The position numbers and the translations under genes were made by a program. From the IMG/VR virus record IMGVR_UViG_3300030430_005376, positions 7,857 through 71,856 of that record: DNA of 64,000 nucleotides. One strand, written 5' to 3'. This document shows positions 10 to 57,585 of this stretch, one piece after another; within the stretch, counting starts at the first letter, position 1; each line of letters starts with the position of its first letter. Below the pieces are notes generated by a model that had not been told where the DNA came from, did no database searches, and worked only from the letters and a program-made list of their open reading frames with translations. The stretch comes from a virus.

Positions 10-343
10 TGGTGGACCCGGCGGGAGTCGAACCCGCGTCCGCAGCAGTCTTAGTTTGAGTCATTCACAAGCTTGTTTAATTTACTGTCACAAATTAAAA
101 AAGATAGATGGCTTTGAGATATCGCTTACCATCCTGTTGCGATAAATGGTTTGATTTTTACAACTTGTCTGTTGTTTCGCTTAAATTGGATAGATGGCTT
201 TAAGCGGCCACCCGATTAAGCGGCTAAGCGCTGTTCGAAGTGTAAGTTGTTGTTTGCAACTATTGTTTTTGAACTTTTAAGGATGTATCTTTCCTGCTTG
301 CACTCTCCCCTTGATTCTACCCCGTCGAAACCATTGCAGGCCC
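10..343 (-). ncRNA. ssrA: Transfer-messenger RNA (tmRNA) with encoded proteolysis tag
   Basis: One-piece tmRNA of about 334 nt that rescues stalled ribosomes and tags the nascent protein. The 3' end shows a T-arm GGTTCGACTCC and an encoded CCA. The 5' end GGGCCUG pairs with CGGGUCC as the acceptor stem, counting G-U pairs, which fixes both ends. The GGTTTCGACGGGG block of the tRNA-like domain follows the 5' end. The resume codon GCA lies at 257-255 in the usual AGTTGCAAAC context. The frame encodes ANNNLHFEQRLAA and stops with TAA at 218-216. A run of T residues directly after CCA could end transcription. It lies downstream of a small virion-type gene and has its own candidate promoter. Confidence 0.95.
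216..257 (-). other. tmRNA tag reading frame
   Basis: Tag frame inside the tmRNA: GCA resume codon, then codons giving ANNNLHFEQRLAA and a TAA stop. The C-terminal LAA is the usual ClpXP recognition end of bacterial tmRNA tags (known for the family). The middle LHFEQR differs from the common proteobacterial tag ANDENYALAA, so the tag sequence may help trace the host or source. Confidence 0.9.
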
Positions 344-5867: not shown

Positions 5868-6114
5868 CATCACTCCTTGAAGCATTCAAGTTTAATGCAA
5901 ATGCTTGTATATTAAATATCTCTATTAATATTTTCTTTACTTCTAAGCCCCATGTCAACTCTACATTGTTTAAGAGCAAGTCAAGGTCTTTGGCTGGCGC
6001 TTTTTCTAAGTATTCTGATACATGTGAAGTCAATTGTTCAAGATTATCTTCGTCCCAATCAAGGGCTTCAAGAAGTGCTGTGTTGTAATGAAAACCAGTA
6101 ACGTCTAATGACAT
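5857..6114 (-). CDS. Hypothetical 85-aa protein
   Basis: Small, acidic, mostly helical protein without a recognised domain. It follows the helix-turn-helix gene at 6114-6407 with a one-base stop/start overlap and precedes a basic-tailed protein. This suggests a co-translated regulatory string downstream of the sigma factor, but nothing in the protein itself shows a function. Confidence 0.5.
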   Translation of the reverse strand: MSLDVTGFHYNTALLEALDWDEDNLEQLTSHVSEYLEKAPAKDLDLLLNNVELTWGLEVKKILIEIFNIQAFALNLNASRSDDVN

Positions 6115-6407
6115 TACTTTTTTCCTTCGTACTCTATCTCTCTCATAAAATTAACAATTGCATCTTGAAATCGTGGATCTTTTGATATTCTATTGATTGA
6201 CTTATCGTCTGTAGGCAAGTTGTAAAGTCCAACAACGTCTCTAGCAATTTTTTCTAGAGAGCTTACAAAAACGTTTCTTGCTGTTGAGTGATTCATCTTA
6301 TAGCCTTTTTCAGACATAATGTTTGATATTTCTTGGTAAGACTTCCCACCAAGTGACTTCTTAGTAGAATATCCGTTCTCTGACTTAAAACCTTTAGGCA
6401 TCGGCAT
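6114..6407 (-). CDS. Helix-turn-helix protein resembling sigma region 4.2
   Basis: 97-aa protein. The central segment SYQEISNIMSEKGYKMNHST followed by ARNVFVSSLEKIA has the layout of a sigma-70 region 4.2 helix-turn-helix: a scaffold helix, a turn and a recognition helix ending in a KIA/KLR-like tail. It starts three bases after the stop of the sigma gene, which itself lacks region 4.2. The AAAGGAG just before its ATG lies within the last sigma codons, so the pair are translationally coupled. It may supply promoter -35 contacts in trans, or act as an independent small regulator. Confidence 0.6.
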   Translation of the reverse strand: MPMPKGFKSENGYSTKKSLGGKSYQEISNIMSEKGYKMNHSTARNVFVSSLEKIARDVVGLYNLPTDDKSINRISKDPRFQDAIVNFMREIEYEGKK

Positions 6408-6410
6408 AGT

Positions 6411-7145
6411 TTACTCCTTTATTTCGTAGATGTTTGTGTCTTGTTCGTCAATATCGCTTATGCCAAATCTCATTCTGAGAACCAGCTCTTCGCGCTTTGT
6501 CAAAGAAGACAATGATTTAACAATTGCTTTTCTTATCTTTTCGTTATCTAAAATCGTATCTAGCGATACAGCATTCTCATCAGGAAGCGTGTCTCCGAAT
6601 GTTCTGTTACCTTCGTCGCCTACCTTTTCGTCGATAGACTTAGTATATTTGGCTTTGATTCCTTTAAGTGCTTCCCGAACATGCTTTGGCGTCAAGCCGA
6701 GTATTTCGCCAATCTCAGATTCTGAAGGATCGCATCCAAAATTTTCTCGATATTCTTTTTGAACTTTCCAAACTTTTCTTGCATTTGAAAGAGTGTGAGA
6801 AGGAATTTTAACTTGCGCACTGCTATTAGTTAAACTTCGGGTAACAGACTGCTTTATCCACCACGATGCATAAGTTGAAAATTTAAAACCTTTGCGCCAA
6901 TCAAACTTCTCGACAGCTTTAATTAAGCCAATGTTTGATTCTTGAATTAAATCTTCTAAGCTTCCGCCATATTTTGCATATTTTTTTGCAATAGATATTG
7001 CAAGCTTGAGATTTGACTCAATCATAATATTTCTAGCTACTGCGTCGCCTGCCTCAATTCTTTTTGCTAAGCTTACTTCTTGTTCGCGTGTTAGTATGCT
7101 GTGGCTTCCCGCAGATTTAAAATACATGTCTAGTGAAGATTTCAT
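6411..7145 (-). CDS. Sigma-70 family factor ending within region 4
   Basis: 244-aa RNA polymerase sigma factor. Region 1.2 lies at about residues 3-33, region 2 at 34-105 (SLEDLIQESNIGLIKAVEKF and KFSTYASWWIKQSVTR), region 3 at about 110-190. The chain reaches the region 4.1 signature KREELVLRMRFGI and stops about 14 residues later, before the helix-turn-helix of region 4.2. A group 2/3 sigma usually continues about 40 residues more. The next gene encodes a region 4.2-like motif. Its leader carries four 14-nt A/T repeats abutting the ribosome site. It likely directs phage gene expression with host core polymerase. Confidence 0.9.
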   Translation of the reverse strand: MKSSLDMYFKSAGSHSILTREQEVSLAKRIEAGDAVARNIMIESNLKLAISIAKKYAKYGGSLEDLIQESNIGLIKAVEKFDWRKGFKFSTYASWWIKQSVTRSLTNSSAQVKIPSHTLSNARKVWKVQKEYRENFGCDPSESEIGEILGLTPKHVREALKGIKAKYTKSIDEKVGDEGNRTFGDTLPDENAVSLDTILDNEKIRKAIVKSLSSLTKREELVLRMRFGISDIDEQDTNIYEIKE

Positions 7146-7153
7146 GTTGCTCC

Positions 7154-7209
7154 TTAATGTTTAATTTTTAATGTTTAATTTTTAATGTTTAATTTTTAAT
7201 GTTTTTTTA
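7154..7209 (-). repeat. 14-nt tandem repeats in the sigma gene leader
   Basis: Four near-perfect copies with a 14-base period (plus-strand TAATG starts at 7155, 7169, 7183 and 7197). On the mRNA strand the unit reads ACATTAAAAATTAA, and the last copy runs straight into the AAGGAG ribosome site of the sigma gene. The same period and ACATTAAA core occur before the ssDNA-binding protein gene. A translational operator is inferred. Confidence 0.75.
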
Positions 7210-7895: not shown

Positions 7896-9494
7896 CTAAG
7901 ATGAAGTACTTTGTTCTATCATTGCTGAACCTACAGACAGAAGTGCAGAAGCTGCAGAAACTGAGTTTTCTAATGCACACCTTGTCACCTTAAAAGGATC
8001 AACAATACCGAGGTCAAACATGTCGCCAAACTTGTCATTTCTAAAATCAAAACCTACGTTCAAGTCTGAATTATGTATTTTATCTAAATATGAGGCCGGG
8101 TCTTTGCCACCGTTTATGATTATTTGTTTAAATGGCTGTAGACAAGCTTTGACTATAATTGCCATTCCTGCTCTCACAGAATCGTTTTTTACTTTCTGCT
8201 GAGCAATTTCAATATGCTTACTTACGCGAGCAAGGGCTACTCCACCGCCTGGCAATATACCTTCTTGAATTGCTGCTTTCGTCGCATTTAAAGCATCGTC
8301 TACCCTGTCGTACCTTTCAATTAGTTCGGCTTCAGTTGAAGCGCCAACTCTTAAAACTGAAATAGCACCTGAGAGTTGACGAAGTCTATACTGATAGAGC
8401 TCTCTTTCGTTCTCAGTGAGGCCAGGTTCTTCAAGCATCTCTTTGATAGAGGCAATTCTATGGAGCTGTTTTTCATTTCTTTTATCTTCGTCAACAATGA
8501 ATAGCGTTGAGTTCTTTTGTACAATTACTCTCTTGCATGTACCGAACATTGTATGATCAAAATTGCTCATATCAAAAGAAGAGTCTAAGACTTCACCACC
8601 GAGAATAGTTTGCATATCTCCTAAAAGTTCATGCCGTGTAGCACCAAATCCTGGAGATTTTATTGCAGCAACTCTCAAAGATCCTTTAACCTTGTTTAGC
8701 ACTAATCCTTGAAGGGCGTCGCCTTCGACGTCATTTGCTATTACAAGTATTGGCTTGTTCATATCTAAAGCAACCTCAAGAGGTTTCATAAGGTTGTGCA
8801 TAGATGTGTGTGCACTATCTGTCATTAGTATGACAGGGTCTTTAAACTCGCAGATGGACTTATCTTTGTCTGTTATAAAATACGGCGACAAAAATCCTCT
8901 TTCAACCTGGTAGCCATCAACAATTGTCAAAGAAGACTTAAAGCCTTTGGCTTCTTCCACAATAACTTCACCATCTACGCCTGATGCTTTTATGGCCTCG
9001 ACAATTAAGTTAGAAACTTCTTCTTCACCATTTGAAGAAATGGTTGCAACCTTCATTAAGTCAGAATCACTTTCAACGTTTCGTTTTTGTTTTGTAAGTT
9101 CCTCAAGTGCAATTTTTAAGCCTAGCTGCATTCCTTCTTTAATTTCTTCCACATCAAATCCGGCTGCCTTCATTCTATGTCCGTGAGCGTAAACTGCTTG
9201 TGCTAAAACAGTCGCTGTAGTCGTCCCGTCTCCAGCTTCGTCTGCTGTTCTTGATGCAGATTCTTTTATGACACGAGCACCTAAATTCTCGACTTCATCA
9301 GAAAGATTAATCGCGCTCGCAACTGTTACACCATCTTTTGTTACGATCGGGTGAAGCCCCGGGCGCTGAATTAGCACAAGCCTACCTTTTGGACCCATAG
9401 TTGACTTGACTGTGTCTGAAAGTTTATCAACGCCTCTTTTTATCGCAGAAGACAGATCATCTCCTGAAATTATCTCTCTTTTTATTTCTGACAT
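7896..9494 (-). CDS. groEL: GroEL-type chaperonin (Hsp60)
   Basis: 532-aa ATP-dependent folding chamber subunit. Equatorial nucleotide motifs TMGPKGR and AGDGTTTATVLAQ are intact, as are the apical KSPGFGATRHELLGDMQ and the intermediate-domain RVDDALNATKAAIQEG with the catalytic Asp (D398 in E. coli). LPGGGVAL follows. Length is close to the bacterial 548, but the C-terminal GGM repeats are missing and the end is SAMIEQSTSS. No GroES gene is visible in the window, so it may use host GroES or act without a lid, as known for some phage chaperonins. It lies in a string with exonuclease and sigma genes. Confidence 0.97.
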   Translation of the reverse strand: MSEIKREIISGDDLSSAIKRGVDKLSDTVKSTMGPKGRLVLIQRPGLHPIVTKDGVTVASAINLSDEVENLGARVIKESASRTADEAGDGTTTATVLAQAVYAHGHRMKAAGFDVEEIKEGMQLGLKIALEELTKQKRNVESDSDLMKVATISSNGEEEVSNLIVEAIKASGVDGEVIVEEAKGFKSSLTIVDGYQVERGFLSPYFITDKDKSICEFKDPVILMTDSAHTSMHNLMKPLEVALDMNKPILVIANDVEGDALQGLVLNKVKGSLRVAAIKSPGFGATRHELLGDMQTILGGEVLDSSFDMSNFDHTMFGTCKRVIVQKNSTLFIVDEDKRNEKQLHRIASIKEMLEEPGLTENERELYQYRLRQLSGAISVLRVGASTEAELIERYDRVDDALNATKAAIQEGILPGGGVALARVSKHIEIAQQKVKNDSVRAGMAIIVKACLQPFKQIIINGGKDPASYLDKIHNSDLNVGFDFRNDKFGDMFDLGIVDPFKVTRCALENSVSAASALLSVGSAMIEQSTSS

Positions 9495-54427: not shown

Positions 54428-54460
54428 TAAAAAAAAGAAAGACACCTTTCGGTGTCTTTC
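54428..54460 (-). terminator. Rho-independent terminator after ssb
   Basis: A perfect 10-bp stem, GAAAGACACC and GGTGTCTTTC, capped by a GAAA tetraloop and followed by eight or more T residues on the minus strand. It lies 20 bases after the ssb stop and isolates ssb from the recA operon. Confidence 0.95.
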
Positions 54461-54480: not shown

Positions 54481-55272
54481 TCAGTCCATCAAGTCTGCAA
54501 AAGCATCATCTAAGCTTGAAAACTTTTCGCTCTTGTTAGACTCAGCGGAAGTATCATCGCTTGTTGATTCATTTGTGCTTGTTGGGTGTTCAGTTCCCTC
54601 ACTCGACATAGTGTCATCATCACCATTGATCCACTTCTCAAGAATTCCTGAGATCTCGTCGTAAGACTTGAGCGTGTACAAGTCTTCCACTTTAGGAATA
54701 TTTTCAAGCCACTCAGATGCTTGCTTTGACTTTGTAGAAAGCTTTGTCACTTTACCTCTAGGCATAACATCAGTCATGGCATACTTTTTACCAGGAGGTT
54801 TGGTGCAAACAACCTTAATGTCGCGGCCTTCGAGGGGATCAGTAATATCACCGTAATCTTCATCAAGCATGATCGATAGAAGCTTTTGATACACAGTCTT
54901 GCCAAAACCCCAAATCTTTACACCTTCATCTTCTTGTCCGCGGACAACAACTGCAGCATAAGTGCGCATGTTCGGGTAAAGCTTCTTAGCCATCTCGTAA
55001 GACTCAGGTGAGCCTTCTTCTCTAAGTTTTCCAATCAACTCTTGAACTGGATCTTTCTTTCCAAACTGGTACGGGGCCACTAAGCCTCGTGCACCTGGAA
55101 TATTGTAGTACCACTGTACTTCCTTAAAAGGCTGACCATCGTTGTCAGGAAAAGAAATAAGCCTCACAGTGTGTTCTTCACCTTCAACAGGCTTCCAGGT
55201 TGAATTACGGTTCTTGTTTGCGCCGCTAAGACGCTCAAGTTTGCGTTTAATCGCGTCAAAATCTATTGCCAT
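54481..55272 (-). CDS. gp32-like single-stranded DNA-binding protein
   Basis: 263-aa protein. FKEVQWYYNIPGARGLVAPY near residue 48 and VVVRGQEDEGVKIWGFGKTV near residue 107 with LDEDYGDITDPLEGRDIKVV match the OB-fold of T4 gp32-like proteins of marine phages. The Cys-rich zinc finger of T4 gp32 is missing. A Ser/Thr/Glu linker leads to an acidic C-terminal tail SLDDAFADLMD, typical for partner binding. It forms its own transcription unit with promoter, repeat-rich leader and terminator, which implies high and autoregulated expression. Confidence 0.85.
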   Translation of the reverse strand: MAIDFDAIKRKLERLSGANKNRNSTWKPVEGEEHTVRLISFPDNDGQPFKEVQWYYNIPGARGLVAPYQFGKKDPVQELIGKLREEGSPESYEMAKKLYPNMRTYAAVVVRGQEDEGVKIWGFGKTVYQKLLSIMLDEDYGDITDPLEGRDIKVVCTKPPGKKYAMTDVMPRGKVTKLSTKSKQASEWLENIPKVEDLYTLKSYDEISGILEKWINGDDDTMSSEGTEHPTSTNESTSDDTSAESNKSEKFSSLDDAFADLMD

Positions 55273-55284
55273 TGTTTTCTCCTT

Positions 55285-55324
55285 TAATGTTTAATGTGCA
55301 ATGTTTAATGTGCAATGTTTAATT
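55285..55324 (-). repeat. 14-nt tandem repeats in the ssb leader
   Basis: Plus-strand TAATG/TAATT starts at 55292, 55306 and 55320 give a 14-base period, with an extra half-copy at 55285. On the mRNA the unit is ACATTAAACATTGC, and the last copy runs directly into AAAGGAG, the ssb ribosome site. The same arrangement precedes the sigma gene. Confidence 0.75.
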
Positions 55325-55332
55325 GCTTAAGC

Positions 55333-55361
55333 ATTATACTAAAGGAGTGATGTTTGTACAA
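55333..55361 (-). promoter_or_regulatory. Promoter of ssb
   Basis: TTGTAC and a consensus TATAAT separated by 17 nt on the minus strand, in the gap between the beta-propeller gene and ssb. Transcription would start near 55326, so the 14-nt repeats lie within the mRNA leader. Confidence 0.65.
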
Positions 55362-55368
55362 AATTTAA

Positions 55369-56475
55369 TTATAAGGGCAAGTGTCTGCTGGCTGCAACAG
55401 TTTGTAGGTCGCGACCTGTACCCCGGATATTGTCAACGGTTTGTGTAAAAGTAGCACCGCTATCAGTGCTTTCATATATGTCGCCTCCTTTCGTCACAAT
55501 CATCCAAGTGTGGCCATCTGTCGTTATGTCACGTATATCAGCTCCATTGTATGCTGGTTTTGCTAGATTGCTTATCGATGTACCACTAACATCAATCCTA
55601 GCAATCTGGTCTCTTCCATTGGCAACTATTACAGCCCGGCCATTCGCTGCTGCTATGCTCGTTCGCGCGAGAGGTACATTAATGTCCCCTCCGTTGTCCT
55701 CGGGCTTATCGATCGTGAGATTAAATTCAGCGCTCCAAGTGGTCAAGTCCGAATCTGCTGCCGTCCTTGCGCGTAGGTTGGATGCATCGGGCCGACCGTA
55801 CACCACAATCCAAGTTGAATTTGTGTATGCGACTCCGCTAATCGAATGGAATTGAAAGGGCTGTGATGAAGAGAATGAAGCCCCATCGTCCGTGCTAACA
55901 AGTAAATGACCGTCACCACCGCCACCAACGGCATTCGCCTGACCGGTTACAAATTTACCGCTTCCATTTCCAGCAATCGAAAGAATTGATTTACCGCTGT
56001 CATTTGGCACAGTGATTTCGGTAAAAGTCGAAGCGCCATCGGTACTTCGGTAAACATGACCATTTCTTCGACCAACCATCCACACACCTGATGTAGAGTT
56101 TGTTGAATCATTGGACCATGTGACAGCATCACAAAATCGCGCACCGCCGTCAACTAGATTAAGACCTGTCCACTGAACACCATCAGTAATATCGTTAGAG
56201 CTAATAGCAAGTTCGCCTGGGGTGGTGCTTGAGGATTGGGAGAATACATAGATACCGTTTCCACTGCCGTCCTTTCCATACGCTCCATCAAGTGACGAAG
56301 AATTGTTGGGGCTTTTATCGTAAAAAGTCCATGATGTTCTATCAGTGTTGGCGGCGTAACCGATGTCACCCGTACCGGAAGCTTCTCCAACAACCCAATA
56401 AGTTGCTGGAGGATTGCCATTTTTAACAGATAAAGAACCTCTTAAATTTAACTGCCCTTTTAGAATTACACTCAT
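55369..56475 (-). CDS. Beta-propeller virion protein with Asp-box repeats, paralog B
   Basis: 368-aa protein paralogous to 56497-57585. Repeated Asp-box-like turns SxDxGxxF occur: YRSTDGASTF, LVSTDDGASF and YESTDSGATF, spaced about 50-100 residues, as in sialidase/BNR and Ycf48-type propellers. Starts MSVILKGQLNLRGSLSVKNG and ends AASRHLPL. Sialidase catalytic Arg triad was not evident. A receptor- or glycan-binding fiber or tail-tip component is inferred. Base composition is richer in GC than the surrounding replication genes. Confidence 0.65.
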   Translation of the reverse strand: MSVILKGQLNLRGSLSVKNGNPPATYWVVGEASGTGDIGYAANTDRTSWTFYDKSPNNSSSLDGAYGKDGSGNGIYVFSQSSSTTPGELAISSNDITDGVQWTGLNLVDGGARFCDAVTWSNDSTNSTSGVWMVGRRNGHVYRSTDGASTFTEITVPNDSGKSILSIAGNGSGKFVTGQANAVGGGGDGHLLVSTDDGASFSSSQPFQFHSISGVAYTNSTWIVVYGRPDASNLRARTAADSDLTTWSAEFNLTIDKPEDNGGDINVPLARTSIAAANGRAVIVANGRDQIARIDVSGTSISNLAKPAYNGADIRDITTDGHTWMIVTKGGDIYESTDSGATFTQTVDNIRGTGRDLQTVAASRHLPL

Positions 56476-56496: not shown

Positions 56497-57585
56497 TTAT
56501 AGGGGCAAATGCTTCGATGCTGCAACCCCAAAAATAGATGTTCCGGAACTGGCTGTGCCAGTGAGCATATCATCTACTGTCTGCGTGAATGTTGCTCCAG
56601 AATCTGTACTCTCATGAACATCGCCGCCGTTAGTTACTATCATCCAAGTAGACCCATCTGTTGTAATATCGCGAATGAGAGCTCCGCTGTATGTTGGATT
56701 TGCTAAGTTGCTTATCGTTGTTCCGCTCACATCAATCCTTGCGATGGCAGCGACCTTATTAGATGTAATTACTGCTCGACCACTTGCGGCTGCAATGTTA
56801 GCCCGGGGTCCCGGATCGTGATCACCATCAGCCGCGGCAGGCTTGGCAATGCCAAGATCAACTTCCGAACTCCATGTCGTTAGATCAGAATCAGCAGCAG
56901 TTCTAGCAAAAAGATTACTTTGCCCACTCTTAGTATATGCCACAACCCAAGTTGAGTTAGTATAAGCAACACCAGCAAGAGTTTCAAAGGTAAAAGGCTG
57001 AGATGCCGAGAATGAAGCACCATCGTCAGTGCTTATAAGCATTCTATCGGACTGACCAGTTACAAACTTGCCGCTGCCATTACCTGCTATTGAGTAAAGG
57101 GCAGTATTGTCATGCGAAGGCACTGTTATTTGACTCCATGTCGATGCGCCATTAGTGCTGCGGTATAGTCTACCGACTGTGCTACCTGCTAACCAAACAC
57201 CTGATGTAGAATTCGTCGAGTCATTAGCCCAAGCAACCGCCTGCATTTTATTAACAGTAAGATTGCTGGGAAGATCTATCTTTGTCCACAGGTTACCATC
57301 TGTAATGTCAGTGGAACTGACTGTAAGTTCTCCGCTGCTGGAACCGTTACCGAAAACGTATATGCCGTTGCCGCTTCCGTCTTTACCATAAGCACCATCG
57401 AGCGAATTACCGTTACCAGATACTCGATTGTAAATTGTCCAAGATGTCCTGTCGGCATTGGCTGCATAGCCGACATCGCCAGGACCGGCTGCAAATCCAA
57501 CAACCCAGTAAGATGCAGGCTGATTGCCGTTACTTACGACTAGACTCCCTCTCAAATTCAACTGCCCCTTGAGAACAAGACTCAT
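56497..57585 (-). CDS. Beta-propeller virion protein with Asp-box repeats, paralog A
   Basis: 362-aa protein sharing the N-terminal LKGQLNLRGSLVVSNGNQPA, TDITDGNLWTKIDL-type and C-terminal VAASKHLPL blocks with its downstream neighbour. Asp-box turns YRSTNGASTW, LISTDDGASF and HESTDSGATF indicate a BNR-type propeller. The pair lie 21 bases apart and arose by tandem duplication; conserved ends frame more variable middle loops. No signal peptide. Role as a host-recognition module is inferred. Confidence 0.65.
   Translation of the reverse strand: MSLVLKGQLNLRGSLVVSNGNQPASYWVVGFAAGPGDVGYAANADRTSWTIYNRVSGNGNSLDGAYGKDGSGNGIYVFGNGSSSGELTVSSTDITDGNLWTKIDLPSNLTVNKMQAVAWANDSTNSTSGVWLAGSTVGRLYRSTNGASTWSQITVPSHDNTALYSIAGNGSGKFVTGQSDRMLISTDDGASFSASQPFTFETLAGVAYTNSTWVVAYTKSGQSNLFARTAADSDLTTWSSEVDLGIAKPAAADGDHDPGPRANIAAASGRAVITSNKVAAIARIDVSGTTISNLANPTYSGALIRDITTDGSTWMIVTNGGDVHESTDSGATFTQTVDDMLTGTASSGTSIFGVAASKHLPL

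Follow-up and report, generated by a model that had tools for sequence, protein, structure and literature searches.

Why does a phage gene for a gp32-like single-strand DNA-binding protein (SSB) begin behind a run of short repeats that leads straight into its ribosome site, and could that run be where the protein represses its own mRNA? The gene in question (ssb; 54481–55272, minus strand, ATG at 55272; 263 aa) lies in a 64,000-nucleotide stretch, referred to here as the window, of a 137,660-base virus contig (IMG/VR record IMGVR_UViG_3300030430_005376). The initial annotation described the gene as gp32-like and the phage as having a DnaE-type replisome, and both descriptions agree with what is encoded. 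The ssb product matches Pfam gp32 (PF08804; E 8.7e-11) and PHROG 1192 (E 2e-19), and the six best Foldseek PDB matches to its predicted structure (mean pLDDT 67) are all T4/RB69 gp32 (2a1k, 1gpc, and 8gme among them). The record encodes a DnaE-type polymerase (PF07733; E 1.2e-55). BLASTP of the SSB against T4 gp32 gave no significant match, and a PDB sequence-profile search with the ssb alignment did not find gp32, which was found only by fold comparison. A scan places a terminator-like hairpin with a T tail 3' of ssb (54437–54460, minus strand), thus ssb appears to be a single-gene unit. The two adjacent genes just upstream (55369–56475 and 56497–57585, minus strand; MSVILKGQLNLRGSL... and MSLVLKGQLNLRGSL...) are paralogs, the first with weak BNR/sortilin-like matches. 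The phage also has a tmRNA gene (window positions 10–343, minus strand; tag ANNNLHFEQRLAA) and a groEL gene (window positions 7896–9494).

On the minus strand, the region from 55361 to 55272 consists, in 5' to 3' order, of a promoter, GCTTAA, the leader, and the ATG. The promoter is sigma70-type (TTGTAC-17-TATAAT; 55333–55361, −10 box at 55338–55333), with a −10 that is kept in relatives. A promoter scan reported the same TATAAT, paired with an overlapping −35 hexamer. The leader (55326–55273, minus strand) reads GCAATTAAACATTGCACATTAAACATTGCACATTAAACATTAAAGGAGAAAACA and is followed by the ATG. It includes six in-register heptads (in order ATTAAAC, ATTGCAC, ATTAAAC, ATTGCAC, ATTAAAC, and ATTAAAG; 55282–55323, minus strand), the last of which is fused to the Shine-Dalgarno GGAG (55279–55282, minus strand) as AAAGGAG. 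It had been proposed that the repeats have a period of 14 nt. Their run into AAAGGAG is evident from the sequence, and their phasing from Tandem Repeats Finder and autocorrelation, but the true unit is a 7-nt heptad (ATTAAAC/ATTGCAC), and 14 is two heptads, a period that arises because ATTAAAC and ATTGCAC alternate. Tandem Repeats Finder reports both (period 14, 2.7 copies, 100% match; period 7, 5.9 copies). RNA folding predicts a mostly unpaired leader whose UUAA(A) repeats extend over the ribosome site.

Shuffles and control leaders rule out a chance origin of the ssb repeats. Compared with dinucleotide shuffles, the autocorrelation of this leader alone has z values of 4.8 (lag 7) and 5.1 (lag 14). 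When 39 leaders from the window are ranked by lag 7, the leader of a sigma-factor gene (see below) comes first and the ssb leader second, and the 37 others have no 7-base periodicity (z −1.8 at lag 7). What is rare is a phased tandem array ahead of a start codon, not the word ACATTAAA, cores of which occur in the leader at 55283, 55290, and 55304; the count of this word was rejected as evidence (8 in the window vs. 5.7 expected).

The repeats are also kept in related phages. Across the ssb leaders of IMG/VR relatives (22 after removal of redundancy), z is 7.3, 4.6, and 5.2 at lags 7, 14, and 21 and is raised at lag 8 too (3.9), values that overstate independence because the leaders are related by descent. 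The heptad letters vary among relatives (ATTGCAC, ATTTGGA, ATTACAA), and the phase is kept, including in a phage of 50% GC. A repeat in which letters change while phase stays is unlike one freshly made by slippage. This bears on whether the arrays need a binding protein at all. A/U-rich open leaders help initiation, and the arrays could be unstructured translation enhancers of that kind, or neutral heptad microsatellites generated by slippage, a reading favored by the perfect ATTAAAC arrays of unrelated contigs. However, an enhancer does not need a 7-nt phase, the phase outlasts changes in letters and base composition, and there are two array-bearing genes per record. We thus consider enhancers or microsatellites improbable.

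Perfect arrays do occur well beyond this phage. The notion that the pattern is unique across all viruses was rejected, given that ssb and sigma leaders of the phage's family account for five of the 21 perfect-array contigs. In six viral contigs (L275, L276, L278, L281, L283, and L284), perfect ATTAAAC arrays directly precede the start codon of a 135-aa gene of unknown identity, and no Shine-Dalgarno is evident. Several further viral contigs carry long ATTAAAC/ATTAAAG arrays. As such arrays are found in unrelated viral contigs, the word alone is not diagnostic.

The ssb leader has a second component, a 5'-terminal hairpin (GCAAT-TAAAC-ATTGC; 55312–55326, minus strand), recognized from stem conservation and RNA folding, for which ATTGC at 55302–55298 is an alternative 3' arm. 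In relatives, the hairpin is separated from the −10 box by a few bases and so lies at the predicted mRNA 5' end. Its pairing is kept while its sequence turns over among clades, with arms GCAAT/ATTGC, GTTCA/TGGAC, GTTCC/GGAAC, GTTAC/GTAAC, GTCAC/GTGAC, and TGTCGGC/GTCGACA; the kept pairs include G-U pairs. The mean best-stem score of 30 ssb leaders is 15.2. The score is 8.2 ± 0.8 (maximum 10.7 over 1000 rounds) for chimeras, in which the 5' part of one leader is joined to the remainder of a leader from another class, and 7.0 for shuffled 5' parts. For this test, about nine of the leaders had their −10 boxes picked by eye, and the most distant groups (L081 and L083) were omitted. The initial annotation had pointed to a possible upstream pseudoknot. 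RNA structure is indeed present there, in the form of a hairpin. No Rfam family reached its gathering score in 20 related loci, and preQ1-II and freshwater-2 were rejected as identities for the leader (weak matches, far below gathering scores). RNA folding also indicates that the second AUUGC of the leader (55298–55302) can pair with GGCAAU in the ORF start (55262–55270, minus strand). This pairing is probably incidental, because clades in which the ORF starts with ATGGCTATT or ATGGCACTT cannot form it.

The G-U pairs in the kept stem are relevant to RNA, and they weigh against the possibility that a transcription factor recognizing direct repeats uses the array as a DNA operator. The position of the repeats, just downstream of promoters, would suit such a factor. 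However, sites at 7-bp spacing turn round the DNA helix, and the arrays adjoin the Shine-Dalgarno in both the ssb and the sigma gene. A DNA operator is, in our view, very unlikely. An autogenous translational operator of the gp32-like SSB, as originally proposed, is a likely identity for the ssb leader, judging from its arrangement and conservation.

What the proposal did not include is the second array. Although its comparative predictions were borne out, its restriction to ssb was not, and a description that assigns the operator to the gp32-like gene alone is probably too narrow, given that an array also precedes the sigma gene. New here are seven heptads (ATTAAAA/ATTAAAC; 7152–7200, minus strand) ahead of a phage sigma-factor gene, identified by Tandem Repeats Finder and by the ssb-trained model and running into the GGAG (7153–7150) of that gene. 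The product is an RpoD-like phage sigma factor (6411–7145, minus strand; 244 aa) with regions 1.2, 2, 3, and the start of region 4, and the gene is a probable second target. We think the case for its control by the same SSB protein slightly better than even, based on the shared array.

Across whole phage records, the array is specific to these two genes. Matches to the heptad pattern in 24 records are ssb and sigma leaders, plus one site within a coding stretch. In addition, motif models, built solely from ssb leaders and excluding those similar to the target's own, were used to scan records on both strands (G008, G002, G019, and G024 were covered except for their final few kilobases or less). 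The ssb and sigma leaders take ranks 1 and 2 in three of the five whole records that carry both arrays (sigma first in G000, the record of this phage, and in G019, ssb first in G007); they rank second (ssb) and third (sigma) in G008, and first (ssb) and fourth (sigma) in G012. In G002 and G024, where the sigma genes are without an array, the ssb leader ranked first. None of the seven competing matches inspected, from four records, is a gene leader: three fall within coding frames, a fourth runs antisense to such a frame, and the remaining three lie outside long frames and are not followed by an ORF.

The ssb array is kept broadly, in all ssb clades, whereas the sigma array is limited to one clade (G000, G020, G014, G012, G008, G021, G016, G007, G018, G019, and, weakly, G015). 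This distribution helps to decide whether the arrays are instead RNA operators of another RNA-binding regulator, of phage or host, that controls both ssb and sigma. An array common to two different genes would be equally well explained by a dedicated regulator. However, its presence in every ssb clade and in a single sigma clade points to SSB as the original partner. One such regulator, RegA (PF01818), was rejected because it is absent from the record; the search, which found no RegA in G000, does find it in the T4 control. We consider another regulator unlikely overall, and the best explanation, with fairly good probability on comparative grounds, to be an autogenous gp32-like SSB operator that was extended in one clade to the sigma factor.

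In members with a visible sigma promoter, the predicted transcript starts almost directly in the array, and there is no well-supported hairpin comparable to that of ssb. Upstream word counts, explored for a promoter motif of the sigma factor, gave only Shine-Dalgarno and A/T words clearly. The sigma factor breaks off just as region 4 begins and so lacks the helix-turn-helix of region 4.2. Directly after its gene, in 20 of 20 relatives examined, is a conserved protein of ∼95 aa (6114–6407, minus strand; ...GYREIAE.MTE.G.KMNHSTARN...) with a predicted helix-turn-helix-like pair. A split sigma factor (cf. T4 gp55/gp33) would be one possibility, but neither profile comparison nor fold search supported this protein as a split-off region 4.2.

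How might the protein act on such leaders? Autoregulation of an SSB via cooperative RNA binding is established in T4 and RB69, where gp32 first binds a pseudoknot at the 5' end of its mRNA and then coats unstructured, UUAAA-containing RNA across the ribosome site, which represses the message (PMC535899). Repression is relieved by demand for SSB because gp32 prefers ssDNA (PMC535899). The site occluded by T4 gp32, which binds cooperatively, is reported as 7 nt (PMC5892887), thus a leader of seven-base units after a 5' hairpin would fit the gp32 mechanism. The ssb transcript would start near 55326 with the small hairpin, followed by the largely open heptad array up to the Shine-Dalgarno. SSB in excess over ssDNA could then load cooperatively, perhaps with about one monomer on each heptad and with the hairpin as the probable nucleation site, and would cover the ribosome site and stop its own translation. 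During replication, ssDNA would draw SSB off the leader and translation would resume. In the one clade in which the array was apparently recruited in front of the sigma factor, the same ssDNA signal would derepress sigma, and later transcription would be coupled to replication. The full scheme, in which SSB represses itself and sigma via phased heptad arrays so that the amount of replication ssDNA times the sigma factor and the genes read by it, is tentative, and we put it at somewhat below an even chance.

If SSB binds both leaders, gene switching would be tied to DNA replication. A sigma gene with a heptad array would be a new, simple means to time transcription by replication, and the coupling, if true, would take a route different from T4's sliding clamp. 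The T4/RB69 papers cited here still describe as unclear how the protein discriminates between its own mRNA and other nucleic acids. Dozens of related phages with phase-locked heptads amount to a mutational series provided by nature, and they suggest a rule open to test, that of one monomer per seven bases.

Comparison among gp32 clades sets bounds on this rule. Tevenvirinae-like gp32 leaders favor lag 10 (z 4.9), marine T4-like leaders favor lag 9 (z 4.2) and have ATACAA words, and leaders of more distant cultured relatives have no heptads. In L205–L260 and L177 (Pelagibacter phage HTVC008M), ATACAA words at ∼9-nt spacing run into the Shine-Dalgarno. Given these periods of 9 and 10, the period is not simply the site size, and 7 nt is no universal gp32 rule. 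The results suggest that operators, in both motif and period, are clade-specific among gp32 leaders. Sequence kinship with the T4 operator was rejected on account of the differing periods in T4-like leaders, and the deep conservation that had been suggested as one possibility is not supported at the level of sequence.

Among known systems, the TAACTGA repeats of Beggiatoaceae (PMC4679880) are similar in that they too are heptamers in direct repeat that stop a few bases short of start codons and have been proposed to be post-transcriptional sites. The leaders described here do not belong to that type, as the heptad is different and two leaders in the whole record carry it, vs. 169 sets in one genome there. 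M13 gp5, which represses gene 2, is a precedent for a phage SSB controlling another gene (PMC535899), and the sigma array may represent a comparable case of translational repression. However, M13 is an unrelated kind of phage, and its target is a replication endonuclease, whereas the target here would be a sigma factor. Closest is the gene 32 operator of T4/RB69 (PMC535899, PMC3014915), with which the locus has in common a gp32-fold SSB, 5' RNA structure, and an open, UUAAA-containing leader covering the ribosome site. It differs in having, so far as the comparison of leaders goes, a hairpin where T4/RB69 have a pseudoknot, a strict 7-nt phase, and an array that is also found before a sigma gene. 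By analogy, then, the layout of the ssb leader is that of the T4 gp32 autogenous operator.
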